A DNA stretch of 64,000 bases from Massilia sp. Root133 (GTDB lineage Bacteria; Pseudomonadota; Gammaproteobacteria; Burkholderiales; Burkholderiaceae_D), in assembly GCF_001426525.1 (NCBI RefSeq), contig NZ_LMEW01000034.1, forward strand, positions 264,190-328,189. Direction: 5' to 3'. Position numbers and translations under genes: made by a program. The notes below the pieces were generated by a model, which did no database searches, was not told the origin of the DNA, and saw only the letters and a program-made list of their open reading frames with translations. Of the stretch, positions 29,965-34,104 are shown one piece after another. Position 1 is the stretch's first letter. Each line of letters begins with the position of its first letter.

Positions 29965-30855
29965 TCACTCCCCCAGCAGGCTGGCCGCGGCCACGCCGAG
30001 CAGGGGCGCGACGTCGATCCGGTTGCTTGCATGCGCGATGGTATTCGTGCAGGCCACCCCGGCGACACCGGCCGCCTGCAGTTCGGCGTACGCGTCGGCA
30101 GCGAACAGCGCGTGGACGGCGATGCAGACGGGTGGGTCCATGCCCGCCTCGCGCACGCGCGCGACGGCGGCGATCATCGTCCGCGCCGTGGAAGCGATAT
30201 CGTCCACGAGCACGGGCGTACGGCCGCGCCACTGCGCGAGCGCCGGAACGGACAGGGTCACGTCGCGGTCGCCGCGCCGTTCCTTGCGCAGCGTGGTGTA
30301 CGGACAGCCGACCAACCGCGCCACGTCACCCACCCACTGGTCGCTCTCCTCGTCCGGCCCGATCAGCAGGGGATTGCACACATGGGCGCCGACCCAGGCC
30401 GCAATGGCGGGCGCGGCGGCGACCACGCGCGTCGGAATGGCGTAGATCTCGTCCAGGCTGTGGATCCGGTGCAGGTGGGGATCGACGGTCACGAGCCAGT
30501 CGCCCGCCATGCCGAGCAGGCGCGCGAAATGCTGCGCAGTGACGCCCTCGCCACCGTGGAAGCGGGCATCCTGGCGCATATAGGCGAGATAGGGGACGAC
30601 GAGGCCGATGCGTGCCGCGCCCAGTTCGCGGGCCACGCACGCGGTCAGGTAGAGCGGGACGGTCTTGTCGTTCGGACGATCGAGGCTGCACACGAGAACC
30701 AGGTCCCTGCCCGCCACGTCGGACAGGAACCGCACATGGCTTTCCCCATCCGGGAACGCGCGCAGTTCCCAGCGCCCCTGTTCCCAGCCGCGCAGCCGGC
30801 ACAGGTCGGCGCCCAGCGTCTCGTTGCCGGGCAAGGCAAACAGCAGGGGCGTCAT
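29965..30855 (-). CDS. PRPP synthetase-like protein (ribose-phosphate pyrophosphokinase family)
   Basis: The 296-residue protein has the Prs two-lobe layout: an N-terminal half with FPDGESHVRFLSDVAGRDLVLVCSLDRPNDK and YMRQDARFHGGEGVTAQHFARLL, an ATP/Mg segment VDPHLHRI (about 124-131), and a PRPP loop VLVDDIASTARTM (about 209-221). Canonical Prs has VLVDDMIDTAGT and about 310 residues; the loop here is altered, so it is a divergent member. It should pyrophosphorylate ribose-5-phosphate (or a related phosphoribose) with ATP to give PRPP. Its ATG overlaps the stop of the AMP-phosphorylase-like gene, which indicates a common pathway. Confidence 0.88.
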   Translation of the reverse strand: MTPLLFALPGNETLGADLCRLRGWEQGRWELRAFPDGESHVRFLSDVAGRDLVLVCSLDRPNDKTVPLYLTACVARELGAARIGLVVPYLAYMRQDARFHGGEGVTAQHFARLLGMAGDWLVTVDPHLHRIHSLDEIYAIPTRVVAAAPAIAAWVGAHVCNPLLIGPDEESDQWVGDVARLVGCPYTTLRKERRGDRDVTLSVPALAQWRGRTPVLVDDIASTARTMIAAVARVREAGMDPPVCIAVHALFAADAYAELQAAGVAGVACTNTIAHASNRIDVAPLLGVAAASLLGE

Positions 30856-32381
30856 TCGTCCTCCACGATGGCGATGATGTCGGGGTGCGTGGCGGCATAG
30901 GCCACGGCTTCGGACAGCGTCCCCGCCGAGGCGGCGTGGATGGTGTACAGCGGTCCGCCCGCCTTCACGGTGCGGCCGACGGGCGCGAGGAACAGTACGC
31001 CGGCCCCGGCATCCTTCGGCGCGCCGGCCAGCTTGGCCACGCGCGCCAGGCGCCGGTTGTCGATCGCCGCGACATAGCCCGCGCGCCGCGCGAGGACATC
31101 ATGCCGGAACGCGCCGACCTCCGGCACGCGCATGCCGCCCTGGGCCGCGCAGATGGCTTCGAACTTGCGCAGGGCGGCGCCGCTCTCGAGCGTGGCACGC
31201 GCCAGCGCAAACCCTTCGCCGGCCGCGGCTTTGCCGCCCAGCTCCAGCACATGGCCGGCCAGCGTAAGTGCCCGTGTGCGCAAGTCTGCGGGAGCATCGC
31301 GCTCGTTGCGCAGGACGGCGAGCGCATCAAGCGCCTCCAGCGCCGGCCCGATGCCGCGCCCGACCGGCTGGCTGCCGTCGCTGATCACGGTCCGGATCGT
31401 GAGGCCATAGGCCTGGCCGACCGCCTGGAACAGCCGGACGAGGGACTCGGCGGCCGCCTGCGAGCGCACCTTCGCGCTCGGCCCGACCGGGATGTCGATC
31501 AGCACGTGGGTGGAACCGGCCGCCAGCTTCTTCGACAGGACGGATGCCACCATCGCGGCTTCGCCGTCGAAGTCCAGCGGGCGCGAAATGCGGATAAGGA
31601 CGTCGTCGGCGGGGCTCAGGTTGACGGCGCCGCCCCACACGATGCAACCGCCCTCCTGCTCGACCACGCGGCGCATGCGCTCGGTGTCCAGGTCCACCGG
31701 CGCCAGCGTTTCCATGGCGTCTGCCGTGCCGGCCGGCGACGTGATCGAACGGGACGACGTCTTGGGGATCGTCAGGCCGCACGCGGCCACGATCGGCACG
31801 ATCAGGAGCGTCGTGCGATTCCCGGGCAGGCCGCCGACGCAATGCTTGTCCACGACCGGCGCCGCTGGCCACTCCAGCCGGGTGCCGGCCTGCACCATCG
31901 CACCGGTCAGCGCGAACGTCTCCTCCACTTTCAGCGGCCGGCCGGCGCAGGCGGTGATGAAGGCGGCGATCTCGATGTCGGAATACAGGCCGGCGGCGAT
32001 GTCGCCGACGATCGCGTTCGCGGCCTCGACGGAGAGGTCGGCCCCGAAGATCCGCGAACGCACGAACGCGAACGAACGGGCGGGCGGCGCGAGGCGCACG
32101 CGCACCGGTTCGCCTTCGGACGCGCCGAGCCGCTGCCAGGTGAGGTCGGACAGCCCGACCTCGCCGTCGGGCACGATGTCGGCGCGGACGAGGTGCACCA
32201 GCGCCGTGACGGTGCGGCGCGCCGTGCTGACCCGCACGCGGGCGCCGGCGGGATATCTCCCCGTCCGGCATGCGCCGCCGCCTGCGGCGAGATACAGGAC
32301 CGCCGCATTGCCGCTGTCGATGCCCAGCCGGCGCGCGCCCGCGACGAACGACGAAGCGAAGGCTTGCGCGTCGTCCTTCAC
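30852..32381 (-). CDS. AMP phosphorylase-like protein (thymidine phosphorylase superfamily)
   Basis: The 509-residue product is longer than bacterial DeoA because of an N-terminal domain of about 85 residues, the arrangement of archaeal AMP phosphorylases. The phosphate/base loop reads VVDKHCVGGLPGNRTT (about 180-195), matching the GxPGNxTT form of AMPpase rather than the GGVGD form of DeoA, and continues with TIPKTSSRSITSPAGTADAMETL, the canonical PKTSSRAI..PAGT block. The expected reaction is NMP + phosphate to base + ribose-1,5-bisphosphate. The GTG start (32381) has GGAGG seven bases upstream and overlaps the preceding stop codon (GTGA). Confidence 0.87.
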   Translation of the reverse strand: MKDDAQAFASSFVAGARRLGIDSGNAAVLYLAAGGGACRTGRYPAGARVRVSTARRTVTALVHLVRADIVPDGEVGLSDLTWQRLGASEGEPVRVRLAPPARSFAFVRSRIFGADLSVEAANAIVGDIAAGLYSDIEIAAFITACAGRPLKVEETFALTGAMVQAGTRLEWPAAPVVDKHCVGGLPGNRTTLLIVPIVAACGLTIPKTSSRSITSPAGTADAMETLAPVDLDTERMRRVVEQEGGCIVWGGAVNLSPADDVLIRISRPLDFDGEAAMVASVLSKKLAAGSTHVLIDIPVGPSAKVRSQAAAESLVRLFQAVGQAYGLTIRTVISDGSQPVGRGIGPALEALDALAVLRNERDAPADLRTRALTLAGHVLELGGKAAAGEGFALARATLESGAALRKFEAICAAQGGMRVPEVGAFRHDVLARRAGYVAAIDNRRLARVAKLAGAPKDAGAGVLFLAPVGRTVKAGGPLYTIHAASAGTLSEAVAYAATHPDIIAIVEDE

Positions 32382-33736
32382 AGCTGTTCCTCCTGCAGGT
32401 GCTCCGGCACGAGGCAGTTCCACCGGAGCTCGTGTTTGATCCGCACGCGCAACGCCTCGGAGGCGGCCGGCTCACCGTGCGTGATGAACGTGCAGCGCGG
32501 CGCCGTCTTCAACGCCGCCAGCCACGCCACGATCTGGTTGCTGTCGGCATGCGCCGACATGTTCTGCACGTTGACCACCTGCGCCCGCACGCTTACCTGC
32601 TGCCCGTGGATGCGTACCGAGTCCGCGCCTTCGACGAGCGCCGCCCCGCGCGTGCCGCCCGCCTGGAACCCGGCGAACAGGATGGTGTTGCGCGGATCCT
32701 CCGCGAACGCCTTGATGTGGTGCAGCACGCGTCCGCCGGTCGCCATGCCGCTGGCGGAAATGATGACCTTGGGCGTGTTCCTGACGTCGAGCGCCTTCGA
32801 TTCGTCCACGGTGTTGATGATGGTGGCCGCGTGGCACATGGCCTCGCACTGGTCGCGCGTCAGCCTGTGGTCGTCGTGGTGCCGGTGGTAGATCGCAGTG
32901 GCATCCTTCGCCATCGGGCTGTCCAGGAAGACGGGCAGGAACCCGGGGATCGCCCCGGACGCCTTCAACTGGTGCACGTAGTACATGAGTTCCTGCGCGC
33001 GGCCCACGGCGAACGCCGGAATCACGACGACGCCGCCGCGCGCCGCCGTGTCACGAATCGCCTGGCCCAGCTCGACCAGCGGATCGGTCGGTTCATGCAC
33101 GCGGTTGCCGTAGGTGGATTCGACGACCAGGTAATCGGTCGGCTCGAGCGGGGCGGGTGGCGGCATGACGGGATCGTCCGGGCGCCCCAGGTCGCCGGAA
33201 AACGTGATGCTGCGACTGCCGTCGTCGAGCGCGACGGACGCCGCGCCGAGGATGTGGCCAGCCCGGCGCCAGGTTGCGGCCAGTCCGGACGCCACGACGG
33301 TATGGACGCCGAACGGCACGGCGACGAACTGGCGCAACGCGACGCGCGCATCCTCTTCCGTGTACAGCGGCATGGCCGGACTGTGCTGCGTATAGCCATG
33401 ACGGTTGGCCGCCGCCGCGTCTTCCTCCTGCAGGTGGCCGCTATCGGGCAACAGGATCTTGCACAGGTCGAACGTCGCTCCCGTGCAAAAAATCTTCCCT
33501 TTGAAGCCGCCCTTGACGAGGAGGGGCAGGTAGCCGCTGTGGTCGAGATGCGCATGAGTCAGCACGACGGCGTCGAGCTTCGCCGGCTCGATAGGCAGCC
33601 GGGCCCAGTTGCGCAACCGGAGTTGTTTGTAACCCTGGAACAGTCCGCAATCGACAAGGATCCTGGCACGACCGGACGTCAGCAGGTACTTGGAGCCCGT
33701 GACGGTTCCGGTGCCGCCGAGAAACTGGATTCGCAT
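32378..33736 (-). CDS. MBL-fold/beta-CASP nuclease-type protein (RNA-processing family)
   Basis: The 452-residue protein has the beta-lactamase-fold zinc motifs THAHLDHSG (about residue 60), GHILGAASV (about 160), SGDLGR (about 180), then the beta-CASP part with SGMATGGRVLHH (about 330) and a final SAHAD (about 395) plus THGE (motif C His). This is the layout of CPSF73/RNase J-like enzymes that cut RNA or act as 5'-3' exonucleases. It is first in the operon with the AMP-phosphorylase-like and PRPP-synthetase-like genes and has an AGGTGG ribosome binding site. A DNA substrate is possible but less likely. Confidence 0.9.
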   Translation of the reverse strand: MRIQFLGGTGTVTGSKYLLTSGRARILVDCGLFQGYKQLRLRNWARLPIEPAKLDAVVLTHAHLDHSGYLPLLVKGGFKGKIFCTGATFDLCKILLPDSGHLQEEDAAAANRHGYTQHSPAMPLYTEEDARVALRQFVAVPFGVHTVVASGLAATWRRAGHILGAASVALDDGSRSITFSGDLGRPDDPVMPPPAPLEPTDYLVVESTYGNRVHEPTDPLVELGQAIRDTAARGGVVVIPAFAVGRAQELMYYVHQLKASGAIPGFLPVFLDSPMAKDATAIYHRHHDDHRLTRDQCEAMCHAATIINTVDESKALDVRNTPKVIISASGMATGGRVLHHIKAFAEDPRNTILFAGFQAGGTRGAALVEGADSVRIHGQQVSVRAQVVNVQNMSAHADSNQIVAWLAALKTAPRCTFITHGEPAASEALRVRIKHELRWNCLVPEHLQEEQL

Positions 33737-33783
33737 GATGCCACCTATTGTTGAGCGAGCACATCGTACAGCTCGCTTTCACA

Positions 33784-33826
33784 ATAGTAAGTCGTGGCAA
33801 AGAACGCAATCCTTGATTTACATCAA
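33784..33826 (-). promoter_or_regulatory. FNR/ANR-type promoter of the MBL-AMPpase-Prs operon
   Basis: A perfect TTGAT-TTAC-ATCAA box occupies 33813-33826. On the minus strand a TACTAT -10-like hexamer lies at 33789-33784, about 33 bp from the box centre. This is the geometry of a class II FNR/ANR-activated promoter (box at -41.5). The predicted transcript starts near 33778 and leads straight into the MBL gene. Confidence 0.8.
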
Positions 33827-33837
33827 GCCACTCTCTA

Positions 33838-34104
33838 TCAGACCGGGTCCTTGACGACCCGGTCGACGTAGCACCAGCCCCACGTCTCCCCGTGCTCCTT
33901 CGAGCGGATCACGGGGTGTCCGGTCGCATGGAAGTGCTTCGTGGCGTGCTTGTTCTTCGACTGGTCGCAGCAGCCGACGTGGCCGCACGTCAGGCACACG
34001 CGCAGGTGCACCCACGTGTCGCCCGTTCGAAGGCACTCCTCGCAGCCGTCGGTATTGCCCTCGCGGGTCACGATGTGATGAAAGTGCGTGCAGTCGTTGC
34101 TCAT
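33838..34104 (-). CDS. UBP-type zinc-finger protein
   Basis: The 88-residue product is one ZnF-UBP domain: Cys5, His7/9/10, Cys21 and Cys24, Cys37 and Cys40, then His53, His57, His59 and His63 with the WVHLRVCLTCGHVGCCDQSKNKHATKHFHATGHPV core (about 31-65). In eukaryotes this fold binds the free C-terminal GlyGly of ubiquitin; bacterial copies have no known ligand. It lies 15 bp behind the recD stop codon with GGGAGG before the ATG, so it is likely the last gene of the recCBD transcript. Confidence 0.92.
   Translation of the reverse strand: MSNDCTHFHHIVTREGNTDGCEECLRTGDTWVHLRVCLTCGHVGCCDQSKNKHATKHFHATGHPVIRSKEHGETWGWCYVDRVVKDPV

Follow-up and report, generated by a model that had tools for sequence, protein, structure and literature searches.

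The window, 64 kb out of a genome of 7.1 Mb, contains three successive genes for an MBL/beta-CASP nuclease, an AMP/NMP-phosphorylase-like enzyme and a Prs-like enzyme, which on balance we read as a module for RNA degradation at low oxygen. The trio is real, conserved and functionally coherent, and its type of pathway is already known from archaea. Judged from its family and residues, the nuclease would convert RNA to 5'-NMPs; the phosphorylase, as we strongly infer, splits NMP with phosphate into free base and ribose-1,5-bisphosphate (R15P); the Prs-like enzyme would take over R15P and, by an uncertain mechanism, link it to the R5P/PRPP pool. FNR, or FixK in rhizobia, would turn on transcription under oxygen shortage, with ribosomes as a large store of ribose.

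The layout described in the initial annotation, with three genes, GTGA and ATGA overlaps, an FNR box and a -10-like element, is present in full on the minus strand (Table 1). The GTGA is shared by the MBL stop and the phosphorylase start, and the ATGA lies at the junction of the phosphorylase and Prs-like genes. An ORF for a UBP-type zinc finger is also found in the window.

Table 1. Positions of the trio, its upstream elements and the sequence loops discussed in the text.
Feature	Position in window	Strand	Remarks
FNR box TTGATGTAAATCAA, perfect TTGAT-N4-ATCAA	33813-33826	minus	upstream of MBL gene
-10-like element TACTAT	33784-33789	minus	23 nt after FNR box
MBL/beta-CASP/RMMBL nuclease gene (TTHA0252-like)	32378-33736	minus	452 aa
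AMP/NMP-phosphorylase-like gene	30852-32381	minus	GTG start, 509 aa
Prs-like gene, subfamily PRK07199	29965-30855	minus	296 aa
GLPGNRTT loop of phosphorylase, residues 184-191	31809-31832	minus	invariant in 14 alignment rows
Altered loop GPDEESDQW of Prs-like protein, residues 166-174	30334-30360	minus	replaces PDxGG/PDxGA of other Prs
Altered ribose-5-phosphate loop DDIASTART of Prs-like protein, residues 218-226	30178-30204	minus	R225 in 45/68, S222 in 67/68

Gene neighbourhoods were compared in the best 80 of 583 confirmed phosphorylase loci. The Prs-like gene lies adjacent and downstream of the phosphorylase gene in 70 of these 80 loci, and an MBL gene ends less than 600 bp upstream in 38; a 4-base overlap is possible at 48 of 69 phosphorylase–Prs-like and at 30 of 37 MBL–phosphorylase junctions. 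This arrangement occurs more often than by chance. The order in the window is MBL, phosphorylase, Prs-like; Sulfitobacter faviae and Paracoccus sediminicola have the same order followed by XFP, Bradyrhizobium septentrionale has phosphorylase, Prs-like, MBL, and Pseudorhizobium flavum has Prs-like, XFP, MBL, phosphorylase. The gene set is therefore retained although its order differs between lineages. Searching other proteobacteria, as the initial annotation had proposed, revealed the trio there and also in Pontibacter. The trio, or the phosphorylase–Prs-like pair where no MBL gene is seen nearby, forms the core, and the pair occurs in about a tenth of the sampled Pseudomonadota species and on many plasmids. 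No adjacent Prs-like gene was present in 10 of the 80 loci, in one of which (L015) the contig stops 124 bases further; 8 of these 10 were read, and no common replacement gene appeared among the matches listed. In L013 and L064 a flavodoxin/quinone-reductase-like gene, identified by eye, stands in the place of the Prs-like gene.

Homologues of the middle gene product are elsewhere labelled 'thymidine phosphorylase family protein', and its nearest named relatives are from Massilia. An archaeal AMP/NMP phosphorylase matches the protein along its entire length, and the closest structure, for the N-terminal domain likewise, is that of AMP phosphorylase. The GLPGNRTT loop has its counterpart in the GVPGNKT of 4ga5, and the loop insertion is absent from the two thymidine/pyrimidine phosphorylases with alignments shown. 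The extra N-terminal domain and the GxPGN loop of AMP/NMP phosphorylases are thus both found, and together with the full-length fit they back the AMP-phosphorylase-like enzyme of the initial annotation. The score against the AMP/NMP phosphorylase model TIGR03327 was 497 bits, below the cut-off of 535. Cut-offs were likewise not reached for T_phosphoryl (165 vs 570.7), Y_phosphoryl (198.8 vs 409.05) and PRK05820 (207.2 vs 269), while PRK04350, whose name is likewise thymidine phosphorylase, was passed. As the scores stay below these three thymidine or pyrimidine-nucleoside phosphorylase cut-offs and a separate DeoA-like gene sits elsewhere in the genome, a plain thymidine phosphorylase was rejected, and the middle gene very probably encodes a different enzyme. 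With a threshold of E 1e-80, NF003338 detected the phosphorylase in 45 of 398 Pseudomonadota genomes; the match in G255 is partial and has an internal stop.

The product of the phosphorylase is indicated by fusions. In 4 of the 45 genomes (G249, G308, G382 and G392) a single open frame encodes both the phosphorylase and a PhnN domain, and in the three fusions that were rescanned both domains exceed their curated cut-offs; on plasmids of Variovorax sp. SRS16 and Pacificitalea manganoxidans, genes annotated phnN span the phosphorylase match. PhnN is described as converting R15P to PRPP (PMC9700705, PMC11452294). Because homologues are fused to this R15P kinase, the phosphorylase probably yields R15P, a product that the initial annotation had implied. 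Four of the six fusion contexts read adjoin nadC, and the fusion clade may therefore serve a different base and make PRPP. The five phosphorylase genomes without a Prs-like gene are the four with PhnN fusions and G255, and a fused PhnN and a Prs-like gene never occur together in any of the 45. This mutual exclusion hints that R15P may be the substrate of both. Free PhnN over its cut-off accompanies the Prs-like gene in nine genomes (G035, G111, G123, G159, G262, G285, G304, G335 and G366); therefore it is the fusion alone, not PhnN itself, that excludes the Prs-like gene. A link between PhnN and thymidine phosphorylase was not found in open-licence papers. Continuation through R15P isomerase was rejected, as none of the 45 genomes has a match over the TIGR00511 cut-off; matches in 22 of them reach 139-187 of the 314 bits, and the window's own genome has no TIGR00511 match.

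The first protein of the trio combines MBL, beta-CASP and RMMBL domains (Pfam PF00753, PF10996 and PF07521), and its best PDB match is 2dkf, Ribonuclease TTHA0252 (E 6e-69). Each of the residues H61, H63, D65, H66, H161, D182, H396 and H420 is conserved in at least 42 of the 43 sequences compared. With the three domains and the metal and motif residues all present, the beta-CASP nuclease named in the initial annotation is well founded; the protein is probably an RNase, and by analogy with its family it would release 5'-NMPs. A type VII Cas14 identity was also considered and rejected at 372.9 bits against a cut-off of 800.

Measured to the first base of TACTAT, the centre of the FNR box is 30 nt upstream, which corresponds to about -41.5, the class II spacing. 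Exact FNR boxes occur 10 times in the 7.1-Mb genome and the reversed control pattern not once. Other exact boxes precede ccoN (cbb3 oxidase), a UspA pair, PHA synthase, MCP and FtsH, all named by eye, and 4 of the 10 have no such recognisable target neighbour. For Herbaspirillum seropedicae, fixNOP, uspA and PHB genes are reported as Fnr targets (PMC5934665). The window's genome has an FNR orthologue, 76% identical to the query protein from locus L005, in which the Fe-S cysteines were seen. A class II box, an FNR orthologue and further boxes at known kinds of target, with target names assigned by eye, are what an FNR regulon would comprise, and they support the FNR control first proposed from the box.

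Conservation of the box in relatives is not wide. Exact boxes were found in 5 of 72 upstream regions and boxes with at most one mismatch in 12 of 72, the relatives in this count not being independent; the corresponding values for 4000 random 330-base segments, mostly coding, were 0.35% and 2.6%. Eight of the 80 loci, including L007 with an exact box, had been dropped from the count for short or misplaced upstream regions. All five exact-box cases fall among the 31 MBL-led operons.

Published data from Bradyrhizobium diazoefficiens bear on the same question. The genes bll3115, bll3116 and bll3117, which we equate with the trio by names and gene order, are listed in the core microoxic proteome with log2 values of 2.9, 4.4 and 2.1, and the same table marks them '-' for direct FixK2 targets and has no bacteroid entry for them (PMC6515984, Table 2). 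In a fixK2 mutant, bll3115 and bll3117 are tabulated as lower, bll3116 having no row of its own; an operon bll3117-3116-3115 is predicted, and phosphoketolase and acetate kinase are likewise listed in the mutant table (PMC9104804). The oxygen effect that the initial annotation had proposed to look for is thus on record, in these tables, for likely Bradyrhizobium relatives. Low-oxygen control is supported by the genome-wide boxes together with this FixK2-dependent microoxic induction, and the trio is probably switched on at low oxygen.

The Prs-like protein scored 390 bits against NF005537 (cut-off 322), and a separate canonical Prs gene is present in the same genome. NF005537 was found in 41 of the 398 Pseudomonadota genomes, 40 of which also have the phosphorylase (the exception being G383), and in 37 of these 40 the two genes are at most 250 bp apart. 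We aligned the window protein with 67 of the 69 locus proteins, two having been dropped by length. K191, R193, R94-Q95-D96, D168 and D219 are present in 68/68 sequences, D218 in 67/68 and H127 in 67 or 68/68; the catalytic KxR and the acids that bind R5P/ATP in Prs are therefore retained. The canonical PDxG(G/A) loop and the GGT/AGT loop end were not found, the sequences having PDxES in 68/68 and R225 in 45/68. Within the altered GPDEESDQW loop, G166, P167, D168, E170, S171 and W174 are kept in 68/68 sequences and Q173 in 67/68, while all three PDB chains aligned to the protein have PDxGA or PDxGG. A second motif, PHLHR (68/68), stands where the genome's own canonical Prs has DLHAD. These invariant changes, and the co-occurrence with the phosphorylase, support the view that the protein differs from ordinary Prs. 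The altered PRPP loop pointed out in the initial annotation, with its arginine in 45/68 sequences, is less constant than GPDxESxxW and PHLHR, and Ser222 is no sign of new function because the archaeal Prs 1u9y and 4twb have it too.

In E. coli Prs, D220, D221, T225 and T228 are reported to bind R5P, and D170, the aspartate of PDxGG, to contact it together with residues of the R5P loop (PMC9232217). The structure predicted for the Prs-like protein has a confident mean pLDDT of 92.8. The PDxGG loop presumably also binds the terminal phosphates of ATP, and Glu-Ser in place of the glycines could remove one phosphate site, which would fit R15P/ADP instead of PRPP/ATP. The enzyme may thus handle R15P; ordinary Prs activity is also conceivable, since the catalytic residues are kept.

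Genes for a catabolic outlet recur next to the trio in some lineages. A phosphoketolase gene is near the trio in L017 and L078, and in a Thiobacillus MAG (L056) acetate kinase and phosphoketolase genes follow that of the phosphorylase. The acetate kinase gene of this MAG starts with the apparent first codons of a Prs-like gene. In G076, phosphorylase, Prs-like and phosphoketolase genes lie on one strand, and in G123 the phosphorylase and Prs-like genes are followed by acetate-kinase-like, phosphoketolase and MBL genes within 20 kb. Classical phosphoketolase and phosphorylase are found together in 11 genomes against 5.8 expected, a weak excess (p 0.017, uncorrected). In 3 of these 11 genomes the two lie within 20 kb of each other (a simple estimate with random positions gives about 1e-4), and closeness on the contig is a stronger sign than genome-wide co-occurrence. 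No phosphoketolase of either kind was found within 20 kb in 39 of the 45 phosphorylase genomes, and neither kind was found in the window's genome at the thresholds used.

The divergent phosphoketolase (Pfam XFP), mostly annotated 'xylulose 5-phosphate 3-epimerase', occurs in 12 of the 398 genomes, 9 of them without the phosphorylase; in G003, G154 and G293 all four copies lie within the trio cluster. It is also present in 15 plasmid records, many of them close relatives, and 14 of the 15 hold the phosphorylase, at distances of 2 kb or less in 12, 9 kb in one and 58 kb in one. In an Alteromonas record it stands beside an acetate/propionate kinase, with no phosphorylase within 8 kb. The catabolic outlet is thus an addition to the core in certain lineages. 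Phosphoketolase beside the trio speaks more for RNA ribose being broken down to gain ATP than for salvage to PRPP alone, and the phosphoketolase and acetate kinase neighbours would fit a route that yields pentose phosphate and acetyl phosphate.

The simplest chemistry for the Prs-like step would be the reverse Prs reaction with R15P replacing PRPP: AMP would accept the 1-phosphate to give R5P and ADP, from which adenylate kinase would then make ATP. Gene order suggests that in some lineages the pentose phosphate would pass through phosphoketolase and acetate kinase to ATP, whereas in the window's host it would go into the pentose phosphate pathway. As a tentative proposal, possible rather than probable, an undescribed enzyme of Prs ancestry would use R15P as donor of its 1-phosphate and AMP (or ADP) as acceptor, yielding R5P and ADP (or ATP). 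With NMP phosphorylase, phosphoketolase and acetate kinase it would make up a full pathway of substrate-level ATP formation, in which the cell burns its own RNA once oxygen is exhausted.

The initial annotation, largely right on enzymes and regulation, had let the same route from RNA through NMP to R15P end in PRPP, made by the Prs-like enzyme in the manner of PhnN, for base salvage at low oxygen. Such an end point would agree with the retained Prs family and catalytic residues and with the four genomes in which a PhnN fusion, leading from R15P to PRPP, occurs without a Prs-like gene. However, phosphoketolase recurs as an extra partner of the trio, as does acetate kinase, a second R15P-to-PRPP enzyme would be redundant in the nine Prs-like genomes with free PhnN, and PRPP spent on the base just released would make a futile cycle. 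PRPP as the end point is therefore doubtful, and we consider this reading rather unlikely. Taken literally, the annotations (PRK04350 'thymidine phosphorylase', PRK07199 'ribose-phosphate diphosphokinase') would mean two ordinary enzymes, a thymidine/pyrimidine-nucleoside phosphorylase and an additional PRPP synthetase, that are induced along with an RNase to scavenge nucleosides, but DeoA-like and canonical Prs genes elsewhere in the genome, AMP phosphorylase as the nearest structure and N-terminal domain, PhnN fusions that make sense for R15P, and the invariant changes of the Prs-like protein with its tight co-occurrence with the phosphorylase make this improbable. About as improbable is a non-catalytic Prs-like protein, acting as a regulatory subunit or R15P/AMP sensor for the phosphorylase: its loops are altered and a preprint on Prs classes describes pseudoenzymes as recurrent, chiefly in eukaryotes (PMC13252144), but K191, R193, D168, D218, D219, H127 and RQD are kept in 67 or 68/68 sequences.

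The low-oxygen RNA-degradation module, our preferred reading, resembles the archaeal NMP shunt, or pentose bisphosphate pathway, of Thermococcus kodakarensis, in which NMP is described to undergo phosphorolysis to R15P (PMC9700705); the enzyme for this step is homologous to the phosphorylase of the trio and has its N-terminal domain in common with it. That pathway consists of NMP phosphorylase, R15P isomerase and RuBisCO; in contrast, R15P isomerase exceeds its cut-off in 0/45 of our genomes, which have the Prs-like enzyme instead, and the bacterial trio has FNR/FixK control and links to phosphoketolase and acetate kinase. With ordinary Prs (EC 2.7.6.1) the Prs-like protein has the family and the catalytic KxR, RQD and DD residues in common, but it differs in its invariant GPDxESxxW and PHLHR, its altered R5P loop and its almost exclusive occurrence with the phosphorylase, the window's genome having a second Prs. 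Bacterial Prs classes II and IV-XI are given in a 2026 preprint (PMC13252144). The PhnN route of phosphonate breakdown (R15P + ATP -> PRPP) likewise consumes R15P and is fused to the phosphorylase in four genomes, whereas the trio is without PhnN, for which its own genome has only a match of 49 bits, below the cut-off and on another contig. Knowledge of bacterial R15P metabolism comes mostly from phosphonate use, and that of NMP phosphorylase mostly from archaea. Among the FixK2-dependent genes of B. diazoefficiens the trio is co-induced in microoxia, and the tables give no pathway for it. Another low-oxygen locus, lxa of B. cenocepacia, is reported to include a metallo-beta-lactamase superfamily protein of 51 kDa as well as a phosphate acetyl/butyryl transferase (PMC6127331). 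In open-licence papers, literature joining NMP/AMP phosphorylase with phosphoketolase or with bacteria was archaeal only, and no description was found there of a bacterial version that combines a Prs-like enzyme, regulation by FNR/FixK and outlets through phosphoketolase.

If this reading is true, about 11% of the sampled Pseudomonadota species (45/398) would carry a mis-annotated NMP phosphorylase, nearly always accompanied by a Prs-like enzyme whose function is new; in several lineages the pair would be tied to oxygen shortage. It would offer a concrete route for ribosome loss in hypoxic or dormant cells, with ATP gained from stored RNA, and would account for an unexplained part of the FixK2 response.

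Six contexts were read of phosphorylase homologues fused in one open frame to a PhnN domain, the kinase converting ribose-1,5-bisphosphate (R15P) to PRPP. In four of them (see table) nadC lay immediately 5' of the fusion; by eye, none was seen ahead of it in the remaining loci, L135 and L136. Inspection by eye also placed transporter genes close to the nadC-fusion loci or, at L134, nicotinate-dehydrogenase-like and monooxygenase-like genes. Together, nadC and the fusion could form a PRPP-recycling cycle leading from quinolinate to nicotinate: NadC would produce NaMN, the phosphorylase would release nicotinate and R15P, and PhnN would regenerate PRPP. In Variovorax, bug27 is adjoined by nadC and phnN according to PMC11452294, in which the term 'phosphorylase' does not occur.

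Among plasmids, the phosphorylase or a distant homologue was present in 125 records; conjugative or mobilizable types accounted for 62 of these. In the seven plasmid regions read, frequent neighbours were genes for Usp, P-type ATPase, FtsH, cardiolipin synthase and type II GAPDH, and these surroundings perhaps represent a mobile stress island.

Features discussed, with locations
Feature	Sequence	Position	Strand	Remark
PhnN-phosphorylase fusion, nadC ahead	L133 (genome G249)			
PhnN-phosphorylase fusion, nadC ahead	L134 (genome G308)			
PhnN-phosphorylase fusion, nadC ahead	L151 (Variovorax sp. SRS16 plasmid)			
PhnN-phosphorylase fusion, nadC ahead	L152 (Pacificitalea plasmid)			
Acetate kinase	L056	5244-6470		First ~25 residues resemble Prs-like N-terminus (by eye)
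FNR box ahead of PHA-synthase-like gene	G000 (genome of the window), also L121	C4:128206		
88-aa ORF	Window	33838-34104	minus	C/H pattern resembling UBP zinc finger (by eye)

The arrangement at L056, another phosphorylase locus, looks as if a phosphorylase-Prs-acetate kinase-phosphoketolase operon had lost most of its Prs gene. In the window's genome, an acetate kinase match (42% identity) lies a few kb from the PHA-synthase-like gene with the FNR box, and this region is perhaps a second low-oxygen cluster. The 88-aa ORF stops 11 bases ahead of the FNR box of the trio.

Type VII CRISPR Cas14 may have originated from the nuclease family of the window's MBL protein, because the Cas14 model matches this protein over residues 1-445 (372.9 bits, below the cut-off).
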